Shown here piece by piece: positions 1,071 to 61,242 of a stretch of DNA of 64,000 bases. The position numbers and the translations under genes were made by a program. Origin of the DNA: Odiellus spinosus (Eukaryota > Arthropoda > Arachnida > Opiliones > Phalangiidae); assembly GCA_963920705.1 (NCBI GenBank), contig OY987237.1:14476601-14540600 (forward strand). Direction: 5' to 3'. Each line of letters begins with the position of its first letter. Position 1 is the first letter of the stretch. The notes under the pieces are model-generated. The model saw only the letters and a program-made list of their open reading frames with translations, was not told the origin of the DNA and searched no databases.

Positions 1071-1077
1071 AGGTATA

Positions 1078-1460
1078 CAATAACCCCCTTCGGGGGGAAG
1101 TATGAAAGCCCCTATACTACCAATGCTAAAAATCACGAACAACAAGAGCCCGCTGCTGACTATCTAGGCCACTAGCTCGCGCTGGACTTCTCAATGTCGC
1201 TACTCTAGTAAATGGTCTTTGTATAAACAAGACGGCTCGATTTGTGTTTAGAACTTCCTGTCTCGGGAGTCAGGCTGTCTATTAAAATGGAGTCGAAGGT
1301 TGACTTCAGCTCGCGAGTTCCGGAAGTGCGCGTAGGGAAAATTTAGTGAGGTTCAAAATGGTGTAACTATTTTTTGGGAGTAAAAATCGACGAACTTGTT
1401 GTTCGTCGATTTTGCCTACCTTTCATACTTCCCCCCGAAGTGGGCTATTATATACCTCTG
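1078..1460 (+). mobile_element. Family B MITE, copy B1 (383 bp, rearranged inside)
   Basis: Family B terminal repeats are about 41 bp, start CAGAGGTATATAATAACC, and contain CCCCCTTCGGGGGG. TSD GTTCTAC at 1071-1077 and 1461-1467. About 38 bp near the right end are replaced by an inverted copy of neighbouring bases, giving the hairpin AATCGACGAAC / GTTCGTCGATT. Confidence 0.93.
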
Positions 1461-1467
1461 GTTCTAC

Positions 1468-3643
1468 GAATTAGGAGAAGAAATTATCATTAAGCCTTGT
1501 TTCTAGTAAAACCTAAATCATTTCCACCTTTCAAGAAGAACGGCAGGTAAACCTGCCCAACAAATCATTTAATCTGCCTTGGTTCCCTACTTAGTTCGCT
1601 AATTAGTGTATTTCAAAATCGGTTACTTCAAAGCTTCAAAAATAATCTACCCTTTAGAACGCAAATTAGTAAAGACGCGAAAAAAACCTTTTGCATTTAT
1701 TTATTTATTTTTTAATATAAAATAAGTTACAAATATAATTTTTATGTAAAATTCCTCCAGGATTTCAAAAACGTTTCCTACAGGGACTAATCCAGGTTCT
1801 AGATAACACTACACTCTGTTCGTACCATTTTTCTCCTGTCTACTAGACACCTTCTAAGTGTACACCTAGGGATAAATTGCACGCGAGAGAAAAAGTTGTG
1901 TCGAGATGGGTATAGGCCAAGGTGGTGCCATTCTCGTCATATACGAATCTTCCTTATATTTACGCCCCCGCTACGATGTTCTAGAGAATTGTGGAGGGAA
2001 AACTATATAGATTAAGTATATCGACCACACGTTAGGTTGATAAATGAGGATAAAACGCGGGAGAGCGTATAAAGAACCCCCAGACAAGCGAGTTGGAACT
2101 TGGAGGCAAAAACTAAATTGTATACACCATCGTACTCGCGCGGGTACAGATGAAAAAATGTAAGGCTTTATTGTAGCCCTGAAATGACGCGTCTTTATTG
2201 ATCATGTTTCAAGGTTATTCCTAATGCGTCTTCACTCGTCTTTTCTTCGTTTTAACCCCTTTATTCAGTTCCTATACCAGTAGTAAAACTTACGGTACCA
2301 CGCCTTGCTGAAGATACTCCAAGGTACAAACCTAATCCTTAGACAAGGATCAATCGTGAAGCTAAAATCAAACTTTTCGTTTAACCCACGGACAGAGAAC
2401 CGGATATCTTCACATTTCGGGAAAAACCTCGAGACTATTAGGTCAGGGAATTTTGTTCAAAAGCTTGGTATTCTTATATAAAAAAAAAGGCTCCTATATT
2501 TTGGCACGATAGAAATGACCCGACCAAAACCAGACTTGGTTAATAGTAGTTCCCAGTTTCACCGTCGCGATATAGCTGAGATCCAAGGAATGGTTTCGTA
2601 TATTAGGTATAACAATTTTTTTTACTGTGAAAATGATTGATACTGGCCATATCTACCTTTTCCAAATTAAAAATAAGGGCCACTATATTTATTTTACGTA
2701 TCACATGTGGGCCAGGATCGCTGATGTCAGCAGGACTGCCACTCTGATATGTATGCCTCCCACTTGAAAATTAGTGTAGTAGTCTCTATCCCTGGTTTAA
2801 ATATATGACGCGTGTTTCTCTATCTATTATATAACATCAACCGGAACTGCTATCAGACTTGGATGCAATTGGAAAATGCCTAGACTTTAAGAGTTATCTA
2901 TTTTTATACCTATTTTTTATTTTCTCCGAATTCATGGTCCTTGTGATATAAAAAATGAAATAAAACGGGAAAACTAAGCAAAATGATGTATAGGTTGGTC
3001 TGAATTCCCATCCCTGCGAAGTTTTCTTTCCCTTTTTTATTCTCAAGAGGTGTAAAAGTGGCGCGTTTTCTAAAAAGAGTTTTTTTTTTTTTTATACTCG
3101 CTCCAAAAAGATCAGTTTTAATTTTCAATACGTGGAACCCTTGTGCCGTCTAAAGCGGTTGTTGCTAAAATAGGTACAACAGAAGAAATTATGAGAACGG
3201 CTCCATTAATGTAGAGTTCCAATACGCGCATGTCCGCGTTAGAAGCGCCGACCTATTAGCGTAAAAGATGAACATTAGGTTGATGTTTGGGAGATTATTT
3301 GTTCCTTGGGAACTTCAACGTGTGGTAGGAAACCGTTTTCGTGCTATAGATAATGCCATAATTTTGCCGTATCTTGTAGTAAGAACTCGTATACCAATCA
3401 AGATGCGAGCCAAGATATTATAAACCGGTACAAGCCTAAGTTTAGGGAATTAACACAAGAAATTTAAACGCCGGAGTGCATTCTCGCGTGAGAAGACAAG
3501 GTAGACAAAGTTTAGTTTCCATTTCCTCACAAAAAAAACATGATGTAAACCATTTGCAAAAAGAGAATCAGACATCACCCTCGATTTTTGGAAGTTTTCT
3601 ACCGAAATAGTAGGTTTCCCTCTATTGTATTGAAGGTCTAAGA
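1468..3643. other. No gene seen
   Basis: AT-rich, with short A and T tracts (for example about 3080-3092). One 72-codon minus-strand frame is within chance expectation. Confidence 0.55.
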
Positions 3644-3651
3644 GTGAAGAC

Positions 3652-3892
3652 CAGGGACGGAAATAAGAAATTTTTCTTATTGGACAAATGTCCAGTAACC
3701 CCCCCTTTAAAATTCAAAAGTTATCGGACATTTACCAAAATTACCGGACAATGCTACATTTCCTGTATTGAAAAGTACTTTTTATTTAACGGACATTTGT
3801 CCAGTGACCCCCTCTTAAAAATAAAAAGTTATCGGACATTTGGAAAATTTATCGGACAAATGACCAGTGACTTGTGCTTATTTCCGTCCCTG
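3652..3892. mobile_element. hAT-type MITE with 8-bp TSD (241 bp)
   Basis: Terminal repeats CAGGGACGGAAATAAG and CTTATTTCCGTCCCTG are perfect. The flanks are an 8-bp TSD, GTGAAGAC (3644-3651 and 3893-3900), which fits the hAT target form nTnnnnAn. Inside, GGACAWWTGTCCAGTRACCCCC-like modules and TATCGGACATTT occur twice as an imperfect direct repeat. The open frame that crosses the element from the left TSD is not a gene. Confidence 0.92.
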
Positions 3893-4682
3893 GTGAAGAC
3901 AATTCTTGAAGGCGAGTAAGTGATAAAATAAACATTCTAAATCACCTCCCAGTCATTATAGACGAGTCTTATTGGAAGACAATGTCGTGTACCTTTTTTT
4001 GGGACACGCAACCAAGTCGATGCTTCGTGTATTATATCTTCCTAACACATTCTCGCGTTTCGTAAATTAGTTCTTGTTCATTCTGAATGAACCTAACTTT
4101 CTATTCGGTGAAAATTGAAAATGATTCTAACTGTACGTTATCCGAATATGCGGGCAAACCTTCGGTGTTTGTTGAAGAGCCACGGCGCGTGACACTTGGG
4201 AGATTCTACTTCGTACATCATCTCGAATCCGAGGTGGATTTCAGCCCTATTATATAGTAACCTAGTCCTGGATATAACTATATAGGGTTTTATCGCTTAG
4301 AGGTATATAGTTTAAAGTATAACAATAACTGAAAACTTTGGGTGAGGATAAGGTTGCTTTGAAAAGCGCAAAGCAAATTTGGTTCTATACGATGTAGGTG
4401 ACGCTTCAGCGCCCCGCTTTATATCCTAACCGTGGTTCCATTATTTTACATATTACATACACTATATGGGAAAACTCTACTACCCTCTTGAGATTAATCA
4501 TGAGAAAACTGTTTTTATAGGGTTTTTGCTATGGTGGCTTGATATACATATACGATTTTGTTTTTCCTCAATTAATCACGACATCAAGTGGTCTACTTGA
4601 TACATTTTGCTTCGTATTTTTACTTTAGCTTCAGTTCTTTTCTGTTGCTCAAACTTAAACAGGGCTTAAGCCTCAAAATCAA

Positions 4683-4770
4683 TATATATATATATAATTT
4701 TCTATGCACGTATGTCTGTCTGTTTGTCTGTCAGTCGAGAACTCTTAAGTTTGCACGCGATTTTACTAAA
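4683..4770. mobile_element. Pearl/mini-me-like element with (TA)n and (TCTG)n
   Basis: A TA dinucleotide run is followed by TGTCTGTCTGTTTGTCTGTC and then an ACTCTTAAGTTTGCACGCGA block. An AT-rich start, a (GTCT)n core and a short conserved tail are features of pearl and mini-me/DINE-type elements. Ends were not resolved. The short open frame here is not a gene. Confidence 0.45.
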
Positions 4771-5837
4771 ATGAGCAAAGCCGAAGCGAACTGATTTGAA
4801 AAAAAGTAGTCCATGGAAACTCCTATGCCCATCATGCTCGAACTTTAAATTGCAACCAATTTTAATTAATAATCAAAACTTTCGTCATTCTATTATCTAT
4901 CAAGAGTTATAATTTAACAATAAATTTCTCAGGGCAATCAACACGTTGTCTATTCACCCCAAAGTTTTAAGTTAAGCCTTTTATTTTTCTTCCTTAACGT
5001 CCGTTTTTGTACAAGCTGTTCGCGGTATAGTCGCAGTTGGTTCAATCCTTTGGGTGATAAAGAAGAAATAAAGGATGATAGGGCGAGGCCAGACCCGCGT
5101 GCCACGGTTTAGCGACCTTTTTTTTTTTCAGAAGATGAAGAAGAAGCTATAGAAAATGGAGGGTTCTGAGATATATCCCCGGAGGTTATTATATCTTCAT
5201 TATATTAAGGGATCGGTCAAATCCCGACCGAAACGCGCCAATCGCGTGCCCCCCTTCCCCTTATCAGACTTAATAATGAATGATGTCCTCGTCTATCCAC
5301 AAGATATTGGGGGATCCAAGATGCGCCTTGATGTGTATAGTGGTAAAAGTTTGATTATTAGTGGGTTTTAATTTTTTTTAAAACTCAACTTATACGTTCT
5401 AAATTACGTGTAGATAATGTTGAATAGAATAGAAGTAGTTAAAAGAAAAGCTTTGAATTGTTGTCCTAAGAACAACGAATTCGCATCAGCAGTGTTTTAT
5501 TTCAATAATGATAAAGGCGCTGAGAAGCACTCGCCATGTCAGTTTTACAAAAAAAATAAAATAAAATTCAGTAGATAAAAATCACCATTCAATTCCTGTC
5601 TCGATGGAAAAACAGTAACTCTATAAATTTAACATATATTTTTAGTGTTTCTTCTTTTGCGAGACTAAAGAAATTCCCTAGTCAACATCCTGCCTTTAAG
5701 TTTTTTTATCTTCAGAATTCGAATACCCTATTTTCCCTTAGGAAAATCTATTCGTGCAATACTACAAAGCCACCCTTTAAGGGAGTTGAATGGAATGATT
5801 TACATTTTACCTAAGTTTTTTCGTTTTTTCTTATAAG

Positions 5838-6161
5838 CAGAAGCCGATGAAACCCTCCTTTGAAATCTACTACTCCAATGTTCCATATAGCGCTCCTCTC
5901 TGTATGGGTAAAATTCCCAATTTTACGAGTTAGAAGGGGTCCTACTTCATCCCCCCTGTCTACGGAAAATTGGAAATTCTCTCTCTCCACAAACGACGAC
6001 GTTTTTTGGACGAACTCCAAGGCTGCTAGAGATATTCACGCTCCGAAAACATCTACCGTTAGGAGGCGTACGAATCGCGCCTTTTGAGAATAACCCATAC
6101 AGAGAAGGGTAGACAAGACCCGGGAGTAATAAACTTCAAAGGAGGGTTTCATCGGCTTCTG
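5838..6161 (+). mobile_element. Family A MITE, copy A1 (324 bp)
   Basis: Both ends carry the family A terminal inverted repeat, which starts CAGAAGCCGATGAAACCC and runs about 32-39 bp. It is flanked by a 7-bp TSD, TTATAAG (5831-5837 and 6162-6168). This copy is shorter than the usual 337 bp because about 14 bp between GATATTC and GCTCCG are missing. It encodes no transposase, so it must have been moved in trans. Confidence 0.93.
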
Positions 6162-6168
6162 TTATAAG

Positions 6169-7478
6169 ATATACGAATGTCTATCAGCACCCCCAAGGAA
6201 TAAGGAATTCACCGTTGACAGAGTGAATACAGTTGTTTTATAAGAAGATAAGGGCTTAGTGACAACTTTTGTTTCATCTAATGTTTTTTAAGGATGGAAA
6301 CCACTCTTAATATATATGAACAACAAAACGTGGCGTTCATAAGCTTCCTTTAACGGCCAAAAAGGATTAAGAAACAAAACCACGTTCGCGTCTACAGCCA
6401 CTCAAGAGTTGAACTTTCCTACTTTTGCCGTTAGAGGAAGTACCGTTCACCTTTTTTAATGTTTTCCCGCCAAATTTCGGGATATAATGGTCCGATTGAG
6501 TTCAATTTTATTAAATTTTGTAGTTTATTCAACTTTATTTCGGGGAGATTTAAAAAAAAGGGCTCTAAACTTTCTCTGATCGAGTTATAGAGACCCTGAA
6601 GCGAAATTTCTAGATTAAGAAAGCTATCAATTTTGTAGGACATTTTATCAATTCAAGTTCCACGGAACTTGGAACTTTGTTCTTCAAGTTTTATTGAGCG
6701 TAATATTTTGAAAAATAATGACAGGGTTATCAATCAAAATTATTATGCACACTTTTTAAACTATTTGAATTCCAGCGTACCAAAATCCATTGTTAAAATT
6801 TTAATTGTTCGTTAATGGATTAGGGTTAGGATTACTTTCAATGATAAACAATGCGCGTCGTAAAGGGTTTGTGGAATTTATTTTTTTCGAGTTATTTTTA
6901 TTGGATTGTTATTAGCATAAGTAAATAAAACCTCTTTGAAGCGTGGGGAGAAAGGTCATTTTTAGATATTCTATTTTTGCTTGGAAATTGTGTATATGGA
7001 GACAGCTAACCAATTTATTCCAAGTTTGATTAAGACCAATTTCAATTTTAGCCGTAAGTGAAAGCTTGTTTTTGATTCTGAAGAACTTGTAAATATATAT
7101 AAATTTTTACTCGTGGAAAACGTACCTAATTATATTTCAGGAAGCAAAGTTCAAAGTTTGTTTAACGATTTGAATAGAAGAGGGTAATAAATAATTCAAA
7201 GTTTACTAAAAGTACAGACTACAGAGTTAAGATAAACAAAATTGCAAAAGCAATTACTTCGGATTTGATTGAACTGGGTGGTTTTCACGGGTAATTATGT
7301 AGTATATAAAATAAATATCATCCTTGCCTAAAAATAGCCGAAAGTCGTTCAATTTGAGCTTTTTAGTATTTAGTTACGCAAAAACTAAATTAAAATTATC
7401 CATTCTTTGCTCTATGGGAGCTGACATATTCATACGTTTTCTTTAAAAAATTCCTGCACCCTCAATCACTTTCAATTA
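6169..7478. other. No gene seen
   Basis: AT-rich DNA with frequent stops in all frames and no recognised repeat. Confidence 0.55.
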
Positions 7479-7485
7479 CTATAAG

Positions 7486-7824
7486 CAGAAGCCGATGAAA
7501 CCCTCCTTTGAAGTCTATTACTCCCGGGTCTTGTCTACCCCTCTCTGTATGGGTTATTCTCAAAAGGCGCGATTCGTACGCCTCCTAACGGTAGATGTTT
7601 TCGGAGCGGAAGCTCGTCGAGCGAATATCTCTAGCAGCCTCGGAGTTCGTCAAAAAAACGTCGTCGTTTGTGGAGAGAGAGAATTTCCAATTTTCCGTAG
7701 ACAGGGGGGGGATGAAGTAGGACCCCTTCTAACTCGTAAAATTGTGAATTTTACCCATACAGAGAGGAGCGCTATATGGAACATTGGAGTAGTAGACTTC
7801 AAAGGAGGGTTTCATCGGCTTCTG
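7486..7824 (-). mobile_element. Family A MITE, copy A2 (339 bp)
   Basis: Inverted relative to A1. TSD CTATAAG at 7479-7485 and 7825-7831. It has a lengthened G run near the centre and an extra A in the A6 run of the centre (both add 1 bp) and remains open in one frame, but that frame is a by-product of the repeat sequence. Confidence 0.93.
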
Positions 7825-18478: not shown

Positions 18479-18759
18479 CAAGGAGGATCAGAGAACGAGA
18501 GGAAATGTGGGGACGGCGCGGTTCCTACTGCGTCGGCCTAAACTCCCACTCTGGGAGAACGGGGGTAGAGACGTTTCGTGGTAAAATGTTGTCGCGTGGG
18601 TAAAACGAATCCTTTATGAGACGCGCTAGCTAGCGACCACGTGACAACAGTTTACCTCGAGAATTTCCTATCCCCCCTTTCCACCCGAGTGGGAGGTTGG
18701 CTCTTCTCTCTCTAACTCAACGAAGCCCCACATTTCCTCTCCTTCTCTGATCCTCCTTG
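18479..18759 (+). mobile_element. Family C MITE, copy C1 (281 bp)
   Basis: Terminal repeats of about 34 bp start CAAGGAGGATCAGA. TSD ATATTAG at 18472-18478 and 18760-18766. Inside, a second inverted pair (around TGTTGTCGCGTGG and CCACGTGACAACA) makes almost the whole element a foldback. The centre is the short GACGCGCTAGCTAGCG type. It sits inside a family F fragment. Confidence 0.93.
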
Positions 18760-20365: not shown

Positions 20366-20702
20366 CAGAAGTAGATGAAACCCTCCTTTGAAGTCTACTA
20401 CTCTAATGTGCGATATAGCGCTCCTCTCTGTATGGGTAAAATTCCCAATTTTACGAGATCGGAGGGGTCCTACTTCATACCCCCTGTCTACGGAAAATTG
20501 GAAATTCTCTCTCTCCACAAACGACGACGTTTTTTGAACGAATTCCGAGGCTGCTAGAGATATTCGCTCGACGAACTCCCGCTCCGAAAATATCTACCGT
20601 TAGGAGGCGTACGAATCGCGCCTTTTGAAACTAACCCATACAGAGAGGGGTAGACAAGACCCGGGAGTAATAGACTTCAAAGGAGGGTTTCATCGGCTTC
20701 TG
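20366..20702 (+). mobile_element. Family A MITE, copy A3 (337 bp)
   Basis: TSD GTCAATA at 20359-20365 and 20703-20709. It belongs to the variant group with ACGAGATCGGAGGGG in the left arm. The left end reads CAGAAGTAGATG while the right end keeps the common CATCGGCTTCTG, so its two terminal repeats differ at two bases. Confidence 0.93.
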
Positions 20703-21472: not shown

Positions 21473-21891
21473 CAGAGGTATATAATAACCCCCTTCGGGG
21501 GGAAGTATGAAAGGTAGGCAAAATCGACGAACAACGAGTGCCCGGCGTAAATCGCGGCGGATCGACACACTGCTTTACTCCCAAAAAATAGTTACACCAT
21601 TTGGAACCTCACTAAATTTTCCCTACGCGCACTTCCGGAACTCGCGAGCTGAAGTCAACCTTCGACTCCATTTTAACAGACAGCCTGACTCCCGAGACAG
21701 GAAGTTCTAAACACAAATCGAGCCGTCTTGTTTATACAAAGACCATTTACTAGAGTAGCGACATTGAGAAGTCCAGCGCGAGCTAGTGGCCTAGATAGTC
21801 AGCAGCGGGCTCTTGTTGTTCGTGATTTTTAGCATTGGTAGTATAGGGGGCTTTCATACTTCCCCCCGAAGGGGGTTATTATATACCTCTG
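21473..21891 (-). mobile_element. Family B MITE, copy B2 (419 bp), no TSD
   Basis: Both terminal repeats are present and the body is complete, in the opposite orientation to B1. The flanking 7-mers differ (TGTAACG on the left, GTCATTG on the right), the only such case among the 24 insertions of the three 7-bp families. Confidence 0.92.
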
Positions 21892-24254: not shown

Positions 24255-24591
24255 CAGAAGCCGATGAAACCCTCCTTTGAAGTCTACTACTCTAATGTTC
24301 GATATAGCGCTCCTCTCTGTATGGGTAAAATTCCCAATTTTACGAGTTAGAAGGGTCCTACTTCATCCCCCCTGTCTACGGAAAATTGGAAATTCTCTCT
24401 CTCCACAAACGACGACGTTTTTTTTGACGAACTCCGAGGCTGCTAGAGATATTCGCTCGACGAACTCCCGCTCCGAAAATATCTACCGTTAGGAGGCGTA
24501 CGAATCGCGCTTTTTGAATCTAACCCATACAGAGAGGGGTAGACAAGACCAGGGAGTAATAGACTTCAAAGGAGGGTTTCATCGGCTTCTG
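24255..24591 (+). mobile_element. Family A MITE, copy A5 (337 bp)
   Basis: TSD ATTTTAT at 24248-24254 and 24592-24598. It is a mosaic: it has the common-group ACGAGTTAGAA in the left arm but the variant-group GCTTTTTGAA in the right arm. Confidence 0.93.
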
Positions 24592-26778: not shown

Positions 26779-27115
26779 CAGAAGCCGATGAAACAGAGCC
26801 TTTGAAGTCTATTACTCCCGGGTCTTGTCTACCCCTCTCTGTATGGGTTATTCTCAAAAGGCGCGATTCGTACGCCTCCTAACGGTAGATGTTTTCGGAG
26901 CGGGAGCTCGTCGAGCGAATATCTCTAGCAGCCTCGGAGTTCGTCCAAAAAACGTCGTCGTTTGTGGAGAGAGAGAATTTCCAATTTTCCGTAGACAGGG
27001 GGGATGAAGTAGGACCCCTTCTAACTCGTAAAATTGGGAATTTTACCCATACAGAGAGGAGCGCTATATGGAACAATGGAGTAGTAGACTTCAAAGGAGG
27101 GTTTCATCGGCTTCT
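26779..27115 (-). mobile_element. Family A MITE, copy A6, with an altered end
   Basis: The left terminal repeat has AAACAGAGCC where other copies have AAACCCTCC, and the right end lacks the terminal G. TTTTGAG precedes the element (26772-26778) and recurs after it. The downstream junction shares a longer run, CTTCTTATTTTGAG, with the upstream flank. The element is otherwise full length. Confidence 0.88.
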
Positions 27116-27775
27116 TATTTTGAGATATAAAGTTTAATTCAGATAGTATCACATAGTGAAACTTTATTATTACGTGCTGACGTGTAGGAATATCTTAAAA
27201 ATCATTTAGATACACATGCCCTGATTTCAAGAAATCTTAAAAAGTAATTCTAACTCTTGTATGTTGCACGGATCATACCTCTCTCTTTATTGCATACTTC
27301 GTTCGCAATCTCGATTCATTTCTCTCCCTGTTTTAGGGTTAATAGAGAAGGGTACCGATAAAAAGAACAATGGAAATAAAAGCACGTGACAAACGACCTT
27401 ATATTGGGCTATCATCTATTTTTAGCGTCATTCCATTTGCCCCCTTTTACTATATGTCTGTCCATTGTTGCTTTCCTCTGTATATCCTCCTTTACTATAC
27501 CAAATAATAGTTTCACCCCTCTCTCTCTCTTAACTGTCTTCCCACGATTTTCGCTAAGCCTATTAATTACGCGTAGCTTTTCTTTCCTGGTCAAGATACG
27601 TCCAACCGTCCGTATTCCTTAAAACTAGTACAACCCTAAATACCAGAACAGATTACTTATTTCTGAGGCCTGTTCGGTTTCAAGAGTATAGCTTTGCAAA
27701 AATATTAATTTTTATTCCAGATATTAAAGGGAAAGTCTCGTATATATTGAATTTTTGTTTCTCGATCAGTGAGAC

Positions 27776-28193
27776 CAGAGGTATATAAAAAACCCCTTCG
27801 GGGGGGAAGTATGAAAGCCCCTGTACTACCAATGCTAAAAATCACGAACAACAAGAGCCCGCTGCTGACTATCTAGGCCACTAGCTCGCGCTGGACTTCT
27901 CAATGTCGCTACTCTAGTAAATGGTCTTTGTATAAACAAGACGGCTCGATTTGTGTTTAGAACTTCCCGTCTCAGGAGTCAGGCTGTCTGTTAAAATGGA
28001 GTCGAAGGTTGACTTCGGCTCGCGAGTTCCGGAAGTGCGCGTAGGGAAAATTTAGCGAGGTTCAAAATGGTGTAACTATTTTTTGGGAGTAAAGCGGTGT
28101 GTCGATCCGCCGCGATTTACGCCGGGCACTCGTTGTTCGTCGATTTTGCCTACCTTTCATACTTCCCCCGAAGGGGGTTATTATATACCTCTG
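27776..28193 (+). mobile_element. Family B MITE, copy B3 (418 bp)
   Basis: TSD GTGAGAC at 27769-27775 and 28194-28200. Full length, with small indels in the CCCCTTCGGGG hairpins of both ends. Confidence 0.94.
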
Positions 28194-29445: not shown

Positions 29446-29770
29446 CAGAAGCCGATGAAACCCTCCTTTGAAGTCTATCACTCCCGGGTCTTGTCTACCC
29501 CTCTCTGTATGGGTTATTCTCAAAAGGCGCGATTCGTACGCCTCCTAACGGTAGATGTTTTCGGAGCGGGAATATCTCTAGCAGCCTTGGAGTTCGTCCA
29601 AAAAACGACGTCGTTTGTGGAGAGAGAGAATTTCAAATTTTCCGTAGACAGGGGGGGATGAAGTAGGACCCCTTCTAACTCGTAAAATTGTGAATTTTAC
29701 CCATACAGAGAGGAGCGCTATATGGAACATTGGAGTAGTAGACTTCAAAGGAGGGTTTCATCGGCTTCTG
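29446..29770 (-). mobile_element. Family A MITE, copy A7 (325 bp)
   Basis: TSD GTAAGAT on the left (29439-29445) and GTTAGAT on the right (29771-29777), one mismatch. About 13 bp of the centre are missing, at almost the same place as in A1 but with different breakpoints, next to an 11-bp direct repeat (CGACGAACTCC) that occurs twice in full-length copies. Confidence 0.92.
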
Positions 29771-30424: not shown

Positions 30425-30842
30425 CAGAGGTATATAATAAACCCCTTTGGGGGGAAGTATGAAAGCCCCTATACTACCAATGCTAAAAATCACGAACAAC
30501 GAGAGCCCGCTGCTGACTATCTAGGCCACTAGCTCGCGCTGGACTTCTCAACGTCGCTACTGTAGTAAATGGTCTTTGTATAAACAAGACGGCTCGATTT
30601 GTGTTTAGAACTTCCTGTCTCGGGAGTCAGGCTGTCTGTTAAAATGGAGTCGAAGGTTGACTTCAGCTCGCGAGTTCCGGAAGTGCGCGTAGGGAAAGTT
30701 TAATGAGGTTCAAAATGGTGTAACTATTTTTTGGGAGTAAAGCGGTGTGTCGATCCGTCGCGATTTACGCCGGGCACTCGTTGTTCGTCGATTTTGCCTA
30801 CCTTTCATACTTCCCCCCGAAGGGGGTTATTATATACCTCTG
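30425..30842 (+). mobile_element. Family B MITE, copy B4 (418 bp)
   Basis: TSD ATATCAC at 30418-30424 and 30843-30849. Full length. The left hairpin is weakened (CCCCTTTGGGGGG). Confidence 0.94.
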
Positions 30843-33362: not shown

Positions 33363-33781
33363 CAGAGGTATATAATAACCTCCTTCGGGGGGAAGTATGA
33401 AAGGTAGGCAAAATCGACGAACAACGAGTGCCCGGCGTAAATCGCGGCGGATCGACACACCGCTTTACTCCCAAAAAATAGTTACACCATTTTGAACCTC
33501 GCTAAATTTTCCCTACGCGCACTTCCGGAACTCACGAGCCGAAGTCAACCTTCGACTCCATTTTAACAGACAGCCTGACTCCCGAGACAGGAAGTTCTAA
33601 ACACTAATCGAGCCGTCTTGTTTATACAAAGACCATTTACTAGAGTAGCGACATTGAGAAGTCCAGCGCGAGCTAGTGGCCTAGATAGTCAGCAGCGGGC
33701 TCTTGTTGTTCGTGATTTTTAGCATTGGTAGTATAGGGGCTTTCATACTTCCCCCCCGAAGGGGTTTATTATATACCTCTG
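33363..33781 (-). mobile_element. Family B MITE, copy B5 (419 bp)
   Basis: TSD ATATTAT at 33356-33362 and 33782-33788. Same orientation as B2, full length. Confidence 0.94.
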
Positions 33782-37184: not shown

Positions 37185-37545
37185 ACCTGGAGAAGTCAGG
37201 GAAATTATCCCAAAAGGTCTGGGAAAAGTAAGGGAATTTGAAAATTGGCTCAGAAGGTCAGGGGAAAGTCAGGGGATTTGGAAATTGGCCCAAAAGGACA
37301 GAGAAACGTCAGGGGATTTGTAAATTGGCTCAGAAGGTCAGGGAAAAGTCCGGGGATTTGGAAATTGGCCCAAAAGGTCAGGGAAAACTCAAGGAATTTG
37401 GAAATTGGTCCAAAAGGTCAGGGAAAACTCAAGGAATTTGGAAATTGGCCCAAAAGGTCAGGGAAAACAGGGCATTTGGAAATTGGCTCAAAAGTCAGGG
37501 ATATGTTAGGAAATTTGAATATGAGCCTAAATGGTCAGAGGTACG
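37185..37545. repeat. 39-bp minisatellite, about eight units
   Basis: The unit contains AGGTCAGGGAAAA, CTCAAGGAATTTGG and AAATTGGCCCAAA. Two adjacent central units are almost identical and the flanking ones are more diverged. Because 39 is divisible by three, two frames stay open for about 110 codons. The encoded Gly/Lys-rich peptides are an artefact of the period. A related TCAGGGAAAT-rich patch lies at 24090-24190. Confidence 0.9.
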
Positions 37546-38526: not shown

Positions 38527-38863
38527 CAGAAGTAGATGAAACCCTCCTTTGAAGTCTACTACTCTAATGTTCGATATAGCGCTCCTCTCTGTATGGGTAA
38601 AATTCCCAATTTTACGAGATCGGAGGGGTCCTACTTCATACCCCCTGTCTACGGAAAATTGGAAATTCTCTCTCTCCACAAACGACGATGTTTTTTTGAC
38701 GAACTCCAAGGCTGCTAGAGATATTCGCTCGACGAACTCCCGATCCGAAAATATCTACCGTTAGGAGGCGTACGAATCGCGCTTTTTGAAACTAACCCAT
38801 ACAGAGAGGGGTAGACAAGACCAGGGAGTAATAGACTTCAAAGGAGGGTTTCATCGGCTTCTG
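38527..38863 (+). mobile_element. Family A MITE, copy A9 (337 bp)
   Basis: TSD ATTTGAG at 38520-38526 and 38864-38870. Variant group. The left end reads CAGAAGTAGATG and the right end CATCGGCTTCTG, as in A3. Confidence 0.93.
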
Positions 38864-40809: not shown

Positions 40810-40932
40810 AATCCGAAATTAGGCTTAGCAAAATTTGGATTTTTGATATAATCTAAACTAGGCTTAACAAGATTTTAATTTTAGGCTTAACAACTTTTTA
40901 ATTTTAGGCTTAACAATATTTTAATTTTAGGC
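40810..40932 (-). repeat. Inverted lead-in of the TAAGCCTA satellite (four units)
   Basis: Four units of TTTTAATTTTAGGCTTAACA type read in the opposite orientation to the array that follows, so the two form a large potential hairpin. Confidence 0.8.
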
Positions 40933-40946
40933 CATGTTTTGTAATA

Positions 40947-41327
40947 AAATCTTGCTAAGCCTAGTTTCTTAAATATTCAAATCTTGCTAAGCCTAGTTTC
41001 TTAAATATTCAAATCTTGCTAAGCCTAGTTTCTTAAATATTCCAATCTTGCTAAGCCTAGTTTCTTAAATATTCAAATCTTGCTAAGCCTAGTTTCTTAA
41101 ATATTCAAATCTTGCTAAGCCTAGTTTCTTAAATATTCAAATCTTGCTAAGCCTAGTTTCTTAAATATTCAAATCTTGCTAAGCCTAGTTTCTTAAATAT
41201 TCAAATCTTGCTAAGCCTAGTTTCTTAAATATTCAAATCTTGCTAAGCCTAGTTTCTTAAATATTCAAATCTTGCTAAGCCTAGTTTGTATTATTAAATA
41301 TTCAAATCTTGCTAAGCCAAGTTTGAT
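40947..41327 (+). repeat. 32-bp tandem satellite, 12 units
   Basis: The unit contains AATCTTGCTAAGCCTAG then TTTCTTAAATATTCA. Units 1-10 are almost identical, with one base change in the fourth. Units 11 and 12 are diverged, which marks the array edge. Confidence 0.95.
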
Positions 41328-41759
41328 TAAATTTCAGTCTAGAAAAATAGCTTTAATAAGTCTAATAATTAGTAAATAAAAATAACGATCAGTTGATTCG
41401 AGCCTCCCTTTAACGTGTTTTCGTTGTACTGTCGGCTTGAAACGAAGTAATCTGGAAAAATATAAGTACGAGCAGAAGTTTTTCTAGCGTGAAAATCATG
41501 CTCTAACGATTCTACCAAATAGTCTATATTCCTCGGGTCTTGCTTTGAAAGAGCCCAGCGGTTTCCCATTCAACTCGGGTACAGAAGGAGGGGGGAGCGA
41601 GTTCAGGGTTCATGAAACGTCGAATAGAAAAAAGGGAGAGGGCGTCTATAATAATCTAGGAAAAAATATCACACACGGCTGGATCTCTTTTCAATAGGGA
41701 TCTCTAATCTTATTAAGAGTCTTTGCCTCAGAGAAATTTCAATATTATTTGCTTTTAGT

Positions 41760-45581: not shown

Positions 45582-45998
45582 CTGAGGTATATAATAACCC
45601 CCTTCGGGGGGAAGTATGAAGCCCCTATACTATCAATGCTAAAAATCACGAACAACAAGAGCCCGCTGCTGACTATCTAGGCCACTAGCTCGCGCTGGAC
45701 TTCTCAATGTCGCTACTCTAGTAAATGGTCTTTTTATAAACAAGACGGCTCGATTTGTGTTTAGAACTTCCTGTCTCGGGAGTCAGGCTGTCTGTTAAAA
45801 TGGAGTCGAAGGTTGACTTCGGCTCGCGAGTTCCGGAAGCGCGCGTAGGGAAAATTTAGTGAGGTTCAAAATGGTGTAACTATTTTTTGGGAGTAAAGCG
45901 GTGTGTCGATCCGCCGCAATTTACGCCGGGCACTCGTTGTTCGTCGATTTTGCCTACCTTTCATACTTCCCCCCGAAGGGGGTTATTATATACCTCTG
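45582..45998 (+). mobile_element. Family B MITE, copy B6 (417 bp)
   Basis: TSD ATTATAT at 45575-45581 and 45999-46005. The left end begins CTGAGG instead of CAGAGG, a substitution at the second terminal base; the right end is normal (CCTCTG). Confidence 0.93.
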
Positions 45999-46005
45999 AT
46001 TATAT

Positions 46006-48139: not shown

Positions 48140-48435
48140 CAAGAAGGATCAGACAAGGAGAGGAAAAGTGGGGCTGCGTTGAGTTAGAGAGAGAAGAGCC
48201 AACCTCCCACTCGGGTGGAAAAGGGGGATAGGAAATTCTCGAGGTAAACTGTTGTCACGTGGTCACTAGCGTCGTCGACTACTACGAAGCTGATAAAGGA
48301 TCCGTTAAAATTACCCACGTGACAAAAATTTACCATGAAACATCTCTACCCCCGTTCTCCCAGAGTGGGAGTTTAGGCCGACGCAGTAGGAACCGCGCCG
48401 TCCCCACTTTTCCTCTCCTTGTCTGATCCTTCTTG
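48140..48435 (-). mobile_element. Family C MITE, copy C2 (296 bp)
   Basis: Ends CAAGAAGGATCAGA. TSD GTTAGGT on the left (48133-48139) and GTTAAGT on the right (48436-48442), one mismatch. It has the longer centre with CGAAGCTGATAAAGGATCC. Inverted relative to C1. Confidence 0.91.
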
Positions 48436-49509: not shown

Positions 49510-49847
49510 CAGAAGTAGATGAAACCCTCCTTTGAAGTCTATTACTCCCGGGTCTTGTCTACCCCTCTCTGTATGGGTTATTCTCAAAAGGCGCGATTCG
49601 TACGCCTCCTAACGGTAGATATTTTAGGAGCGGGAGTTCGTCGAGCGAATATCTCTAGCAGCCTTGAAGTTCGTCCAAAAAACGTCGTCGTTTGTGGAGA
49701 GAGAGAATTTCCAATTTTCCGTAGACAGGGGGGATGAAGTAGGACCCCTTCTAACTCGTAAAATTGGGAATTTTTACCCATACAGAGAGGAGCGCTATAT
49801 CGAACATTAGAGTAGTAGACTTCAAAGGAGGGTTTCATCTACTTCTG
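49510..49847 (-). mobile_element. Family A MITE, copy A10 (338 bp), variant bases at both ends
   Basis: TSD GTATTTT at 49503-49509 and 49848-49854. Both ends carry the TAGATG variant (CAGAAGTAGATG and CATCTACTTCTG), unlike A3 and A9, where only one end does. Confidence 0.93.
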
Positions 49848-50489: not shown

Positions 50490-50787
50490 CAAGAAGGATC
50501 AGATAAGGAGAGGAAAAGTGGGGACGGCGCAGTTCCTACTGCGTCGGCCTAAACTCCCACTCTGGGAGAACGGGGGTATAGATGTTTCGTGGTAAAATGT
50601 TGTCACGTGGGTAAAACGGATCCTTTATCAGCTTCGTAGTAGCCACTAGCCAACGACGCTAGTGACCACGTGACAACAGTTTACCTCGAGAATTTCCTAT
50701 CCTCCTTTCCACCCGAGTGGGAGGTTGGCTCTTCTCTCTCTAACCCAACGCAGCCCTACTTTTCCTCTCCTTGTCTGATCCTTCTTG
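50490..50787 (+). mobile_element. Family C MITE, copy C3 (298 bp)
   Basis: TSD CTTTGAC at 50483-50489 and 50788-50794. Same AAGAAGG-end, long-centre type as C2, in the opposite orientation. Confidence 0.93.
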
Positions 50788-52269: not shown

Positions 52270-52550
52270 CAAGGAGGATTAGACAAGGAGAAGAAATGTG
52301 GGGACGGCGCGGTTCCTACTGCGTCGGCCTAAACTCCCACTCTGGGAGAACGGGGGTAGAGACGTTTCGTGGTAAAATGTTGTCGCGTGAGTAAAACGAA
52401 TCCTTTATGAGACGCGCTAGCTAGCGACCACGTGACAACAGTTTACCTCGAGAATTTCCTATCCCCCCTTTCCACCCGAGTGGGAGGTTGGCTCTTCTCT
52501 CTCTAACTCAACGCAGCCCCACATTTCCTCTCCTTGTCTAATCCTCCTTG
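52270..52550 (+). mobile_element. Family C MITE, copy C4 (281 bp)
   Basis: TSD ACTCAAT at 52263-52269 and 52551-52557. Nearly identical to C1, with the same short centre, so these two are recent relatives. Confidence 0.93.
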
Positions 52551-52557
52551 ACTCAAT

Positions 52558-54675: not shown

Positions 54676-54960
54676 AGGTTATGAAAGGTCAAATCTATAC
54701 TATTTGTCATATTTTTCCTGATGTTTTGATTATGGGAGTATATCGAATTTAAAGAATAATTCATTTTGAAGGGTCATAAGAGGTCAAACTCTTGGAATGA
54801 ATGTTTCGTAATATTGAGATAATTTGTATCCGTTTTTATTTATTTATTTTTTTTTTTTTCTTGCGTAAGGATTTTGTGCGCGTTAAGATTTAACCATCCT
54901 TAATAAATTATCATTGATGTATCAAGGCCCCTGAATTTAAAAAAGGGTCATAAGGGGTCA
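54676..54960 (+). promoter_or_regulatory. Three DR4-type nuclear-receptor-like half-site pairs
   Basis: AGGTTA-TGAA-AGGTCA at 54676-54691, GGGTCA-TAAG-AGGTCA at 54771-54786 and GGGTCA-TAAG-GGGTCA at 54945-54960. All are direct repeats with a 4-bp spacer on the + strand. They also share a preceding AATTTAAA block, so they may be decayed copies of one small repeat. Confidence 0.35.
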
Positions 54961-55194
54961 ATAGAAATGGTAAACTTATTAATCGGATTAACAACCTCGC
55001 ACATCGATTTTAAAATTAACCCTTGGGTCGTATCTTGTTGTATTTTCTTGTCAGAAGCTCAGTTTTGTACAACTTTCTTTTAAGCTTGGACGCATATCAT
55101 AATATATAAAGATAAATAACAAAAAGTTGGCTTTCATAAGCGTCCTCTAACGGCAAAACAGTTTGGTCAAAGAACTGACAAAACCACGTTCTAT

Positions 55195-55530
55195 CAGAAG
55201 CCGAAGAACCCTCCTTTGAAGTCTACTACTCCAATGTTCCATATAGCGCTCCTCTCTGTATGGGTAAAATTCCCAATTTTACGAATTAGAAGGGGTCCTA
55301 CTTCATCCCCCATGTCTACGGAAAATTGGAAATTCTCTCTCTCCACAAACGACGACGTTTTTTGGACGAATTCCAAGGCTGCTAGAGATATTCGCTCGAC
55401 GAGCTCCCGCTCCGAAAACATCTACCGTTAGGAGGCGTACGAATCGCGCCTTTTGAGAATAACCCATACAGAGAGGGGTAGACAAGACCAGGGAGTAATA
55501 GACTTCAAAGGAGGGTTTCATCGGCTTCTG
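55195..55530 (+). mobile_element. Family A MITE, copy A11 (336 bp)
   Basis: TSD GTTCTAT at 55188-55194 and 55531-55537. The left repeat has a small change (CAGAAGCCGAAGAACCC). Confidence 0.93.
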
Positions 55531-56073
55531 GTTCTATTGATAAAGAATAGGCAAATTAGAAATAGTTGCCTGTTGAAATTTTTATTCTTACTCAATTTAT
55601 GAATCTGTCTACACCAATCATAACAGACCGATATTTTTAGGGAGGGATTTCAAATACTCTTGAAATAAAATTAACTTAAAACGTTTGACAGAAAACCTCG
55701 CTTTTTTGTTATTATTTGGCCCGCAATGCTCTAGAAACAAAATATTTATGAAGGAAGATAACATTGTAGAATTTAAATTTTTAAAAATTCTTGAGTTTAT
55801 TTCCTAGACCGGATGTTTGCGCGTAGTATATGTGTTTTGTTCCTTCTCTTATAGATACACTTTCCCGAATTTGTATATAGATGCCTACTTTGTAGTCAAA
55901 AGAGAATCAACCCCTGCGCAAGTATATTTCGTTGAGCGTTGAGCGTAGTAAACTAGGATGTTCCACCAAATTCCGCAAAGTTTAGGTTTTGCTCTTCTTT
56001 AGACTGTATACTATATATCCCGTCAAAACATAAATATCCCTCCTTTAAAACTTTAACCTATTCTAGCCGTTGT

Positions 56074-56412
56074 CAGAAGCCGATGAAACCCTCCTTTGAA
56101 GTCTACTACTCCAATGTTCCATATAGCGCTCCTCTCTGTATGGGTAAAATTCCCAATTTTACGAGTTAGAAGGGGTCCTACTTCATACCCCCCTGTCTAC
56201 GGAAAATTGGAAATTCTCTCTCTCCATAAACGACGACGTTTTTTTGGACAAACTCCGAGGCTGCTAGAGATATTCGCTCGACGAACTCCCGCTCCGAAAA
56301 TATCTACCGTTAGGAGGCGTACGAATCGCTCCTTTTGAGAATAACCCATATAGAGAGGGGTAGACAAGACCCGGGAGTAGTAGACTTCAAAGGAGGGTTT
56401 CATCGGCTTCTG
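56074..56412 (+). mobile_element. Family A MITE, copy A12 (339 bp)
   Basis: TSD CCGTTGT at 56067-56073 and 56413-56419. This is one of only two insertions among the 7-bp families without T at TSD position 2. It lies 536 bp downstream of copy A11. Confidence 0.93.
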
Positions 56413-56419
56413 CCGTTGT

Positions 56420-57847
56420 CCATAGCTAAATTGCATGGCGAGTCTTTACCAAATTTGAAGCCATACCAAGGTTGTATCCGAAAATTTGCAGTAAACGAAT
56501 TTACGGTTTAGAGATGTTCTCTTTCGATATTGTTTTTATTTTTATTTTATTTTTTTATTGTTTGGACCAACAAGCTCCTCGTGGTACAGTTTTAGGGGTT
56601 TCAAATGTAGGAAACTAGTTGGCGGTGACACGTCCTTGGACGTGAGTCGACTTAATTTCGTTGCATTAATCCGTGGATTCATTCCCCTGAAGAGTTTCGT
56701 TCCCATTCTGATGGAGAATATTTTTGCTACTAGTTAATTCGATAAACCCTTGTTTAGAGATGCACTGATTTTATATATTTATGTCCAAACCAATTTGCAG
56801 AGAGAAATTCTTCACGAACAGCTACATAAATTCCACCTTAATTTGGCAGTACATTCAAAGCTTATAGATAACCCTTATTACTATGATTTGTTTAATTGAG
56901 ATAGAGGAAGCCTAGCTTTGCGCGTACTGACAAGTCAATGCTTTAGGTTCAGTTTGATATTTTGGATCGAAATAAAATATATGAGCACTACTTTTTAATA
57001 CATAAGGTATCACTTCGCTATAGCGTTGAAAGATATTGCAATCTTAGATTGCGTAAAAAGGTTCAGTGAATTTTGAAACTTTTAGACGTTTTTCAGACTA
57101 ACAACTCCTATATCTATATAAATTCTGAATAGTCGAATCAAGGGATTTTGTTAGCTTCTTCGTGAAACCTTACCAATTTGGCCCTAAATTTATTTGTAAA
57201 ATTAAATTACTATACGTACTTCTATATATTTTATGAAAGAAAGCTAATGATGATGACTTCTATATTTTTATCAGTGATGGAACCAGCTTTTTTTTCTCTT
57301 CTCAAGCCTATAGGGTGTGATATAATTATAGTGTGAACTCACATTTTTTAATACGTTCAAAGGTATTAATTCATTTTTAGACTTCACGCGCAGTGTCAAC
57401 TGAGACACGTTCATTCGCACGAACGGAGTTATCTTGTCAGCTTATTGTTATTGTTAGCTTATACTTAATAGACTCAAACGATTGAATGCAGTCACTAATT
57501 ATATCTGTAACCGTTTTCACACTAGAATAATCATAGGCGCAATATTACACGATGTTAAACTTCAAAAGGATTGAAAGTAGTTTGTGTAAACTGCCTTTGA
57601 AGACCCAATTGCGCGCATTAATGCAATTGCGAGTCCAGCAAAAAAAGATTTATTTGATTCTGTATACTTTACGCTTTTAGCTACGATGAAAAAAGGTACG
57701 TGGTTTTAACCAAATAGGTTCATTATCTATAACAGACACTCGAGTAATTAGCCGGGCCTAAACGACTACCCGCCACTTCTATCAACGTTAATTTATAGCT
57801 CCCACTACTCTATTATCTATTTTTTGCTTGCATTGTCGGTCATTTAA
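56420..57847. other. No gene seen
   Basis: Mixed composition. Two similar TTTTTAATAC segments (about 56990 and 57348) hint at old repeats. No exon evidence. Confidence 0.45.
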
Positions 57848-58200
57848 GCCGCGTTCACACTTTGAAACCGTTTTGAACCGTATTGGAAAGGTCAAATTAA
57901 AAGATTTTGGGGTCATCCAATTAATATCTCGTATAGAGTCGATTTGAAGATTCGAAACGATTTGAAAACGGTTTCAAAGAAGCTGCGTTTATATTAGGCC
58001 TCAGGATCGATTTAAACAATTTCAAAAAGATTTCGCTAGAGTCGTGGGAACGGTAAACCGTCTTTTCTCGAAACTGCTTCGGGAACTAGTTTCAAACCGA
58101 TTCATTTTCAACAACCGGTAAATGAAGCTACGATAAATCGATTTATAAAGAACGCGAGACGCTTAAGTCGGTTTCATTTTACTGCTAGTGTGACCGTAGC
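57848..58200. mobile_element. Family M inverted-repeat element, copy 2 (353 bp)
   Basis: Starts GCCGCGTTCACACTTTG and ends GCTAGTGTGACCGTAGC. The body is a degenerate series of AAACCGTTTTGAA / TTCAAACCG-type segments on both strands. It shares GATTCGAAACGATTTGAAAA with copy 1. Confidence 0.5.
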
Positions 58201-58785
58201 TGTATATAGAGTCAAGGGTGGACGCAGTTATTGGTAAGGCTTTCGCGTGGCAGCTAGAAAAGAGATCTCGTAAGAGAGACCGTGCTAGCTCAAAAATTGT
58301 CAGTGTAATTATTATAGATAGATACATTGTATGTACGTATTCGTCTGGTTTAACAGAAGGTAGGGAATCTGGCGATTATAATTGGGTCGGTGTTTTGATA
58401 AGCAAACATCGCGAAACAGTCAACTGTATACGATTATTAATTGCGAAATATTTGGTGGAGGGGTAAGGGGAATTGGTGGTTGGATCTAAAGGCCAACGGA
58501 AGTGATTTCTGGTCTAGTCGCCCCTTGCACACGCGCGACGTGGCCGAGCTGGCAACCCAACACCCCCGTGTATATCTGTATCAGACTAAATTCCCAGACA
58601 GTTACGTGATATAGAGCCTTGTACAGATCACGCGATGGAACGGCTGGCCGATGCTTAGGAATTATATTTACACCACTATAGTAAGGTTCCTCTCCCTCTC
58701 TGTAAACGGTATACATTTTGAGTATTGACACGACGAAAGGGGAGTTATGTTTTGCGAAAACGAAACCAACCAATGCCGCCGCAAT
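58201..58785. other. GC-rich region with possible exon-like frames
   Basis: Between family M copy 2 and the TTAA element, about 58480-58640 is noticeably GC-rich. One + frame after AG at about 58516 reads a protein-like 33 codons (contains DVAELATQHPRVYLYQTKF) before a stop, and a 95-codon frame lies on the opposite strand. There are no strong splice sites and no family was recognised. Confidence 0.25.
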
Positions 58786-59370
58786 TTAAAGGGAAACTAG
58801 AAAGATTTTATTGCAAATTTAACAGATTTTTTATAGATTCCTTAACTAGAAATAAATTTAAAACTTACCCAGAAAATAGGCTTAGCGGGATTCATATAGA
58901 ACCTGATTTCCTCGCGTATAAGCAGAAGCCGATGAAACCCTCCTTTGAAGTCTACTACTCTAATGTTCCATATAGCGCTCCTCTCTGTATGGGTAAAATT
59001 CCCAATATTACGAGATCGGAGGGGTCCTACTTCATACCCCCCTGCCTACGGAAAATTGAATATTCTCTCTCTCCACAAACGACGACGTTTTTTTTTGACG
59101 AACTCTAAGGCCGCTAGAGATATTCGCTCGACGAACTCTCGCTCCGAAAATATCTACCGTTAGGAGGCGTACGAATCGCGCTTTTTTTAAACTAACCCAT
59201 ACAGAGAGGGGTAGACAAGACCCGGGAGTAATAGACTTCAAAGGAGGGTTTCATCGGCTTCTGGTATAAGGTATAGCGACGTAAACTTTAAACGTTTTCA
59301 AGGGTAATTGGCTAATTAAGTAATCGAATTTTAAACATTATTTAAATTTCAGCTGTTAGTTTCCCTTTAA
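58786..59370. mobile_element. TTAA element D6, split by family A copy A13
   Basis: Left end TTAAAGGGAAACTAG, right end CTGTTAGTTTCCCTTTAA, both bounded by TTAA. The left interior matches family D (ACTAGAAATAAATTTAAAAC, AATAGGCTTAGCGGGATTC). A13 and its 7-bp TSD (58916-59270) interrupt it. Without A13 it would be about 240 bp. Confidence 0.75.
58923..59263 (+). mobile_element. Family A MITE, copy A13 (341 bp), inserted into a TTAA element
   Basis: TSD GTATAAG at 58916-58922 and 59264-59270. The flanks are continuous with family D sequence (CTCGCGTATAAGG, as in copy D1 at about 19530-19545), so family A was moving after this D copy had inserted. Confidence 0.94.
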
Positions 59371-60891
59371 ATATATCATCTGCAAATTTATACCGTCTGG
59401 TTTGTTTTTGTCTGAAATTTGAAAGTCCTCCATATAATTAGATTTCATTATGCTATTGAATATACCTATATCTTTACATTTCTTCTACGAGACTTCGGCC
59501 TTAAAAGGACTAGATATTTGCCCGAAAATGCTTAAATTTGAATGGAGCTTTGGTATGGTATCCCGCTTAGAAACTCTTGTTAAATATGTAAAATTATAAA
59601 TACCTTTCAAGAATAAGATAAAAGGATTCTTTAACGAATATATTTGTGAGATAACTTAACCTCATTTAAATTGTTAATACATTTTAAAATATAAGTTGGT
59701 TTGACGTCAAGAAACGACACTAATTGAATTCTTTTAGAGACGACAGATCTTGGAATTTTGTTTAAATATTTTGTATAATGGGAATGCGACCACTACTTAA
59801 GGGTTTGGTTTAAACTTGTGTGGTCCAAACTTGGAGGATGGTTCAAATAATTTTACCTCGACCGTGGAGTTTGTTAGTTCGTTCGAATAAATTCCATAAG
59901 ATTGCGCTAGGAATGCTCCTTTTTCTTGAAACTTGTTGGATTCCCTAGTGATGTTTATATATATCTAAACTTTCCGATAAGGTCTCGACAAAAATACTTT
60001 CATGACCTTTACACTTTTATCAGCGAATACGAACGAACCTTAAACAATATTATGACAATGCCTGTCTTACATCCAGTAGACCTACAATACCGCTGCAATT
60101 GACAGGTCGTTATAGCTAATGTATAGAGATATTCAAAGGAATGCCTCTAACATCAAAACTCTATATTCAATGCCTCAAAAAAGTTTATTTTCCAAAAAAG
60201 GGGGTGAGTGGCCTGGAAGATTTTTATCTAAATTGTTTCGTAAATTCAATGACCTTAAAATAGAAAAGGATTAACCAACTTTTTTCATTGGTTGAAATTA
60301 AAAACTGTAACTCTCTTCGAATATAATCTGTCGAACATTTAGAAAGGTTTTAAGTGGCTTATTTGTAAGCTCGTAATAAGAACGCAACCTCAATTCTACT
60401 TTCGCTTGGGTTTTCAGCCTCTCGCTCTTTTCACGTCAAATTGAACTGATGAATGAAACATTCTATCCCATTTCACTCTCGCTTCATTTTCAGTTCGAGC
60501 ATTTTAAAGCAATATATATCATAACATACTCTACTTAAAACGTGAAGCTTTTAGTTTCTTTAAGCCACCTTTAAACGATATTGTTTTCAATTTATTGAAT
60601 AGTTTGATGGAAAGTTTCCCACGAAGGTCGTGGTGAAAGCCAAGCAGTTCGATAATGTACACGCAATGTTGTCCAAGGCTTAACTGTGTCACTATTTAAC
60701 GTTTAAGCATCGTAGCTATTTCTAATCCCAACTTTACGTAATAATAGTTCCAATTCCATAAATGCAATGGATGCATTGTTGGGATACTGTTGTAGAGAAT
60801 GTTAGCCCCGCAGTCAGTGAAACGTTGGCCTCGAATTTTGAAATTTCTCCCTCAGAGGTTCATTTCAAAAGAGTTGTCTGTAGAGTTATAA
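59371..60891. other. No gene seen
   Basis: AT-rich DNA with no recognised repeats. No frame has both splice signals. Confidence 0.5.
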
Positions 60892-60898
60892 GTACGTT

Positions 60899-61235
60899 CA
60901 GAAGCCGATGAAACCCTCCTTTGAAGTCTATTACTCCCGGGTCTTGTCTACCCCTCTCTGTATGAGTTATTCTGAAAAGGCGCGATTCGTACGCCTCCTA
61001 ACGGTAAATGTTTTCGGAGCGAGAGCTCGTCGAGCGAATATCTCTAGCAGCCTCGGAGTTCGTCCAAAAATCGTCGTCGTTTGTGGAGAGAGAGAATTTC
61101 CAATTTTCTGTAGACAGGGGGGATGAAGTAGGACCCCTTCTAACTCGTAAAATTGGGAATTTTACCCATACAGAGAGGAGCGCTATATGGAACATTGGAG
61201 TAGTAGACTTCAAAGGAGGGTTTCATCGGCTTCTG
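60899..61235 (-). mobile_element. Family A MITE, copy A14 (337 bp)
   Basis: TSD GTACGTT at 60892-60898 and 61236-61242. Common group, full length, both ends intact. Confidence 0.93.
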
Positions 61236-61242
61236 GTACGTT

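Follow-up and report, generated by a model that had tools for sequence, protein, structure and literature searches.

Three families of miniature transposable elements in Odiellus spinosus, their 7-bp target-site duplications and a probable source in P-superfamily transposases

A 64,000-nucleotide stretch of the Odiellus spinosus genome (OY987237.1, positions 14476601-14540600; hereafter the window, in a host genome of 443 Mb) carries 24 copies of three families of miniature inverted-repeat transposable elements (MITEs), designated A (14 copies), B (6) and C (4). Our analysis indicates that all three are probably (at a rough probability of 0.72) non-autonomous elements moved in trans by P-superfamily, Galileo-like transposases that cut their target 7 bp apart, be it one lineage or several related ones. 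We file them in the P superfamily because of the length of their target-site duplications (TSDs), the core of their target motif and the way in which both contrast with the hAT elements read here, not because of shared ends.

Duplication length and insertion target of families A, B and C

Repeat finding combined with boundary fitting recovered all 24 copies, in the same numbers per family as a preliminary description of this DNA. The three families have the characters of MITEs, being short (281-419 bp), non-coding, bounded by terminal inverted repeats (TIRs) and present in many near-identical copies. The TIRs measure 30-42 bp, except in an indel-bearing B copy, where they are 16 bp long, and those of A, B and C differ from one another. 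No open reading frame (ORF) of 120 amino acids (aa) lies wholly within any window copy; a 127-aa ORF at 58725-59108 extends into the A copy at 58923. The 40 genome copies scored per family were 97-100% identical to the query copy, and family C was probably mobile recently, since all 40 of its scored copies round to 100% identity. Family C comprises two subtypes with different centres, CAAGAAGG (296-298 bp; copies at 48140 and 50490) and CAAGGAGG (281 bp; copies at 18479 and 52270), the second of which looks very young. The window copies are as follows, where a TSD given by its letters is a perfect 7-bp repeat:

1068..1460, + strand: B MITE, 393-bp variant; TSD GTTCTAC
5838..6161, + strand: A MITE; TSD TTATAAG
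7486..7824, - strand: A MITE; TSD CTATAAG
18479..18759, + strand: C MITE, 281 bp; TSD ATATTAG
20366..20702, + strand: A MITE; TSD GTCAATA
21473..21891, - strand: B MITE; without TSD; contains the empty-site sequence of the nested C copy L077
22925..23261, + strand: A MITE, 337 bp, 39-bp TIR, query copy; TSD GTTAAAT
24255..24591, + strand: A MITE; TSD ATTTTAT
26779..27116, - strand: A MITE, last base changed; 8-bp repeat ATTTTGAG
27776..28193, + strand: B MITE, 418 bp; TSD GTGAGAC
29446..29770, - strand: A MITE; TSD matching at 6 of 7 bases
30425..30842, + strand: B MITE, 418 bp, query copy; TSD ATATCAC
33363..33781, - strand: B MITE; TSD ATATTAT; contains the empty-site sequence of L077
34857..35194, + strand: A MITE; TSD ATATTTC
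38527..38863, + strand: A MITE; TSD ATTTGAG
45582..45998, + strand: B MITE; TSD ATTATAT
48140..48435, - strand: C MITE, subtype CAAGAAGG, 296 bp; TSD matching at 6 of 7 bases
49510..49847, - strand: A MITE; TSD GTATTTT
50490..50787, + strand: C MITE, subtype CAAGAAGG, 298 bp; TSD CTTTGAC
52270..52550, + strand: C MITE, 281 bp, 34-bp TIR, query copy; TSD ACTCAAT
55195..55530, + strand: A MITE; TSD GTTCTAT
56074..56412, + strand: A MITE; TSD CCGTTGT
58923..59263, + strand: A MITE; TSD GTATAAG
60899..61235, - strand: A MITE; TSD GTACGTT

Perfect 7-bp TSDs thus flank 20 of the 24 copies (12 of 14 in A, 5 of 6 in B and 3 of 4 in C). The preliminary description had counted 7-bp repeats at 23 of 24 copies, a figure that holds if the three imperfect cases (29446, 48140 and 26779) are included, although only 20 are perfect at 7 bp. 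For the genome at large, we read 30 A, 30 B and 20 C loci, taken from 40 scored matches per family among 549, 1486 and 645 candidates, respectively. After one A and one B locus that turned out to be window copies had been dropped, what remained were 78 further copies (29 of A, 29 of B and 20 of C), giving 102 insertions together with the window, all with distinct flank pairs; as the best matches to window copies, the genome loci are biased towards intact, young insertions and do not form a census. Among the 102 insertions, 85 had a perfect 7-bp TSD and 4 a perfect 8-bp TSD, while 10 matched at 6 of 7 bases, 1 at 7 of 8 and 2 had no repeat. When the left flank of one copy is paired with the right flank of another, 0.1 perfect 7-bp matches are expected by chance, which bears out the strict 7-bp duplication proposed earlier; a peak at 8 bp, which the preliminary description had set against its own reading, did not appear in the genome sample.

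The four perfect 8-bp TSDs (GTAGGAAC, GTAGTAAT, GTTTCAAC and, at window copy 26779, ATTTTGAG) each have T at position 2 and A at position 7, as though the same machine had spaced its two cuts a base further apart. At the A copy 26779-27116, a longer stretch, CTTCTTATTTTGAG, is found on both sides besides the 8-bp flank match, and microhomology repair at the element end may have been involved there.

The 7-bp repeat is a true duplication, because an exact empty site exists for a C copy nested within a B copy elsewhere in the genome (locus L077). Removal of the C element and one ATGAAAG from this locus leaves a 34-base stretch with exact matches at window positions 21494 and 33384, both within B copies.

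The sites that are duplicated share a motif. In the 20 perfect window TSDs, T at position 2 (T2) occurs in 18 and A at position 6 (A6) in 15, in keeping with the strong T2 and A6 (21 and 17 of 23) noted previously. Across all 85 perfect 7-bp sites, T2 was present in 71, A6 in 61, T three bases before the TSD (T(-3)) in 66 and A three bases after it (A(+3)) in 61, each with a binomial p <1e-12 at a background of 0.33; position 1 was a purine in 65 and position 7 a pyrimidine in 59. T(-3) was found in 23/33 A, 24/29 B and 19/23 C sites and A(+3) in 27/33, 22/29 and 12/23, the latter being weaker in C. The target common to A, B and C is accordingly a 13-bp palindrome, T..[RTnnnAY]..A, so that the symmetry described before is upheld and widened by T(-3) and A(+3). 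That these two outer bases recur in all three families adds to the case for a common kind of integrase. For B, the majority bases read GTATTAC in one tabulation and come close to GTATTAC in that of the perfect TSDs.

P-superfamily and hAT elements of the same genome

Transposases of the P superfamily are plentiful in this genome: of 386 candidates for the profile PF21787, the best 150 were scored and all 150 matched, many with open frames of 600-900 aa. We read eleven long P loci (L061-L064 and L085-L091) and resolved both ends and the TSD in five:

L063: 3777 bp; TSD 7 bp
L085: 4581 bp; TSD 7 bp
L062+L100: 6141 bp; TSD 7 bp
L091+L102: 5443 bp; ends CA(A/G)AG; TSD CTCCAAT, 7 bp
L064: 5207 bp; TSD 8 bp

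Three further copies of L063 also have 7-bp TSDs (ATTATAC, GTTTTAC and ATACAGA), whereas the ends were resolved in neither of two further copies of L062; L103 and L106 have the same flank as L091, for which reason they were excluded as new insertions. At L061:4904-4974, we found two adjacent 31-bp palindromic mini-elements running from TIR to TIR (CATAGACTAAGAAC...), with the 7-bp repeats CTTCTTA and TTCTTAC. Either minimal mobile units or a duplication of local origin could account for them, and, with overlapping TSDs, the two insertions are perhaps not independent. Counting them, nine of ten resolved P insertions have 7 bp and one has 8 bp; leaving them aside, the figures are seven and one of eight. 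Four P families, together with the mini-elements that carry the ends of a fifth, hence leave 7-bp TSDs. The nine 7-bp insertions show T2 in 8, A6 and A(+3) in 6 each and T(-3) in 3. The L063 protein combines THAP and RNaseH_N with a GTP-binding domain and resembles the P transposase structure 6p5a (match at 3.2e-21). Overall, the P transposases are diverse (the pairs listed are 22-53% identical), and 7-bp insertions occur with each of several unrelated P TIRs (CGGTGCC, CGTTGCC, CATAG, CARAG).

hAT transposases are abundant as well, all 150 scored, the best of 220 candidates, matching PF05699. We read two hAT families, L092 (TIR CAGTGCCGGATTA) and L093 (TIR CAGTAGCGCCGCCAG), the ends of which start with CAGT. 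Including two more copies of each, their TSDs were 8 bp in six of six insertions. Transposases of Mutator-like elements (MULEs) are also present, with 72 matches to PF10551 among 114 candidates.

Candidate sources of the transposase

The 1360 (Hoppel) element of the P superfamily has a 7-bp TSD. Its target motif is discussed alongside that of Galileo in PMC4168063. Galileo, a P-superfamily element of Drosophila, resembles A, B and C in its TSD, which is mostly 7 bp and 8 bp in three copies, and in the TSD consensus, which is GTATTAC in D. willistoni and GTANTAC over six genomes (PMC4168063). Its target is likewise a palindrome wider than the TSD, and many of its copies are non-autonomous (PMC4168063). 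A, B and C therefore combine TSD lengths that the P superfamily leaves, 7 and, rarely, 8 bp, with a palindromic target around a GTANTAC-like TSD as known from Galileo. Judged by the bases around the TSD, they are not Galileo itself: their sites have T(-3) (66/85) and A(+3) (61/85) where Galileo is flanked by AAN and NTT (PMC4168063). The TIRs of Galileo are long and internally repetitive (PMC3573991), as opposed to 30-42 bp here.

If P transposases are responsible, they would bind the TIRs, excise the MITE and join its two ends to target strands 7 bp apart, or 8 bp apart in a few per cent of cases, and gap repair would then leave the 7-bp repeat. A two-fold symmetric transposase assembly would read both halves of the target, which would make the target symmetric and account for its sharing by families with unrelated interiors.

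Several observations weigh against a P-superfamily source. Within this genome, the L064 family leaves an 8-bp TSD, T(-3) is present in just three of the nine 7-bp P insertions, six of the eleven long P loci (L061, L086, L087, L088, L089 and L090) yielded no resolved full element, and the hAT control consists of two families. Elsewhere, Drosophila P and zebrafish P-like elements have 8-bp TSDs (PMC7776569), as do the P elements and P-MITEs of Anopheles gambiae; the latter derive from P elements and have masters with matching ends and 27-31-bp TIRs (PMC1562414), whereas the TSDs of A, B and C are 7 bp long and limited searches brought no master to light. The flanks of Galileo, AAN and NTT, are moreover opposite to T(-3) and A(+3). 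Judging by titles and the beginnings of abstracts, we recognised no 7-bp P-MITEs outside Drosophila in the literature searched, which is not to claim their absence from print.

Our limited searches for an autonomous element sharing its ends with A, B or C, which found none, point the same way. Neither the eleven long P loci nor 11 left-end windows of further P loci had an A, B or C end as an element boundary. Patterns that require a TIR followed by a non-MITE base gave 34 matches for B, 168 for A, 4 for C, 2 for the C centre and, with further patterns, 68 for C and 215 for B, and no partner was identified among the matches listed. The only facing pair at an element-like distance among them (C5:20991715-20996143, 4.4 kb) may be due to local MITE density, and no P (best 150 of 386), hAT (best 150 of 220) or MULE match was listed near it. 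The terminal 110 bp of A, B and both C subtypes, aligned locally with six P elements and two hAT elements, showed no significant similarity to them; the best z score among 120 comparisons was 3.2, and some hAT scores nearly equalled the P scores. When A, B and C were compared at full length (blastn) with the P and hAT loci retrieved, E <1e-3 was reached only by neighbouring MITE pieces in L085 and L107, and tblastn of the transposase ORFs against the window gave no match at 1e-3. Of the outcome that the preliminary description had set against a single lineage, three partners from unrelated superfamilies, nothing appeared in the sample, but then no partner of any kind was found. Going by the matches listed, the best A and B copies often seem to fall in particular chromosome regions (for example, C11 20-23 Mb and C5 21-23 Mb), while P transposase copies seem to crowd others (C1 3-8 Mb, C2 24-32 Mb and unplaced contigs).

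Within the P-superfamily reading, it is slightly more likely that several related lineages, rather than one, moved A, B and C. The variant with three related lineages, one per MITE family, and the shared target as a property of their clade has somewhat better than even odds: the TIRs of the three families are mutually different, the P transposases of this genome are very diverse and 7-bp insertions occur with unrelated P TIRs. Against it, T(-3) and A(+3) are common to A, B and C, but T(-3) is weak in the nine P insertions (3/9, with A(+3) in 6/9), which hints at a narrower common machine.

A hAT-related transposase with an unusual 7-bp cut, as suspected in the preliminary description, is unlikely to move A, B and C. 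hAT TSDs follow nTnnnnAn and the termini CAGAGG and CAGAAG resemble hAT ends. hAT MITEs have CAGAG-type ends and a symmetric T and A within the TSD in common with A, B and C, and transposases of this superfamily abound here. However, hAT MITEs differ in their 8-bp TSD, measured in all six control insertions from two families, on which we reject hAT as the source; A, B and C have 8 bp in 4 of 102 insertions against 7 bp in 85. Ends of the form CA(A/G)AG are also carried by the P-superfamily element L091. Across the portions of literature searched on hAT and MITE TSD length, a '7-bp TSD' was met only for Galileo, and PMC1852546, as far as available, gives one only for a truncated RTE copy. The earlier survey of superfamilies had overlooked the Galileo branch, with its mostly 7-bp TSDs and GTATTAC consensus (PMC4168063). 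What stands of the proposed 'one transposase lineage, possibly hAT-related' is one kind of transposase for three unrelated families, as the shared T(-3) and A(+3) suggest; the hAT affiliation finds no support in the two hAT families read.

It is quite improbable that another superfamily with 6-9-bp TSDs (Mutator-like, Dada or KDZ) is responsible, even though MULE transposases are present. Dada leaves a TSD of 6-7 bp, as the preliminary description had also remarked, but prefers multicopy RNA genes, and MULE TSDs are about 8-11 bp long; strict 7 bp, rare 8 bp and a GTATTAC-like core fit P elements and Galileo better. Finally, the chance expectation of 0.1 over 102 distinct flank pairs and the exact L077 empty site in two window B copies rule out that the 7-bp repeats merely reflect where the boundaries were drawn or belong to the repeated unit itself.

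With P-superfamily transposases as the preferred source, a superfamily call from the ends alone would probably have been wrong, as the combination of CAGAG-type ends and 7-bp TSDs speaks here for P-superfamily MITEs and not for hAT. Our data further suggest that, at least in this genome, the 7-bp habit known from Galileo in Drosophila is widespread across diverse P elements. Given that 7-bp P, 8-bp P and 8-bp hAT families exist side by side, the structural basis of 7- versus 8-bp spacing becomes testable.

Possible two-gene P elements and minor observations

Four divergent P lineages have a second, convergent ORF on the other strand:

L061: transposase gene 1853-4420, + strand; facing ORF 5202-5867, - strand
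L062+L100: transposase gene 2080-4095, + strand; facing ORF 5362-6813, - strand
L090: transposase gene 1089-2966, + strand; facing ORF 4024-4881, - strand
L091+L102: transposase gene 1199-3145, + strand; facing ORF 3779-5440, - strand

All four main genes carry RNaseH_N, according to the genome profile search and, for L061 and L062, Pfam, and in all four a motif search located an exon with an RNaseH_C-like motif. The GTP-binding domain has a Pfam match in L061 and L062, with which L090 and L091 align over about 600 aa; THAP was matched by Pfam in L061 only, and L091 has an upstream ORF that looks THAP-like by eye. The facing ORFs, 222 to 554 aa long, match one another (blastp E 3e-36 to 0.025), and a profile built from them aligns with the C-terminal region of further P transposases encoded in the genome (hhalign probability 91.5, E 8.6e-7). 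The two facing ORFs scanned had no Pfam match, and the one searched against the Protein Data Bank had no match below E 0.05. In L062+L100 and L091+L102, both genes lie within the same TIRs and 7-bp TSDs. Because the main proteins of the four lineages are only 32-48% identical, the arrangement looks old, and it could represent a split P transposase. By title and abstract beginning, nothing similar to a two-gene P arrangement was seen in the literature searched. It is conceivable, if doubtful, that A, B and C are moved by a P branch distinct from both Drosophila P and Galileo, which would be characterised by a 7-bp cut, the T..[RTnnnAY]..A target and two convergent genes, one for the THAP, RNase H and GTP-binding domains and one for the C-terminal domain.

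Apart from the transposable elements, TAACC (TTAGG-type) tracts, which point weakly to an arthropod host, were seen at L110:665-740, and the window contains tandem arrays at 40878-41357, 63004-63393 and 37202-37481, with units of about 32, 33 and 40 bases, respectively.

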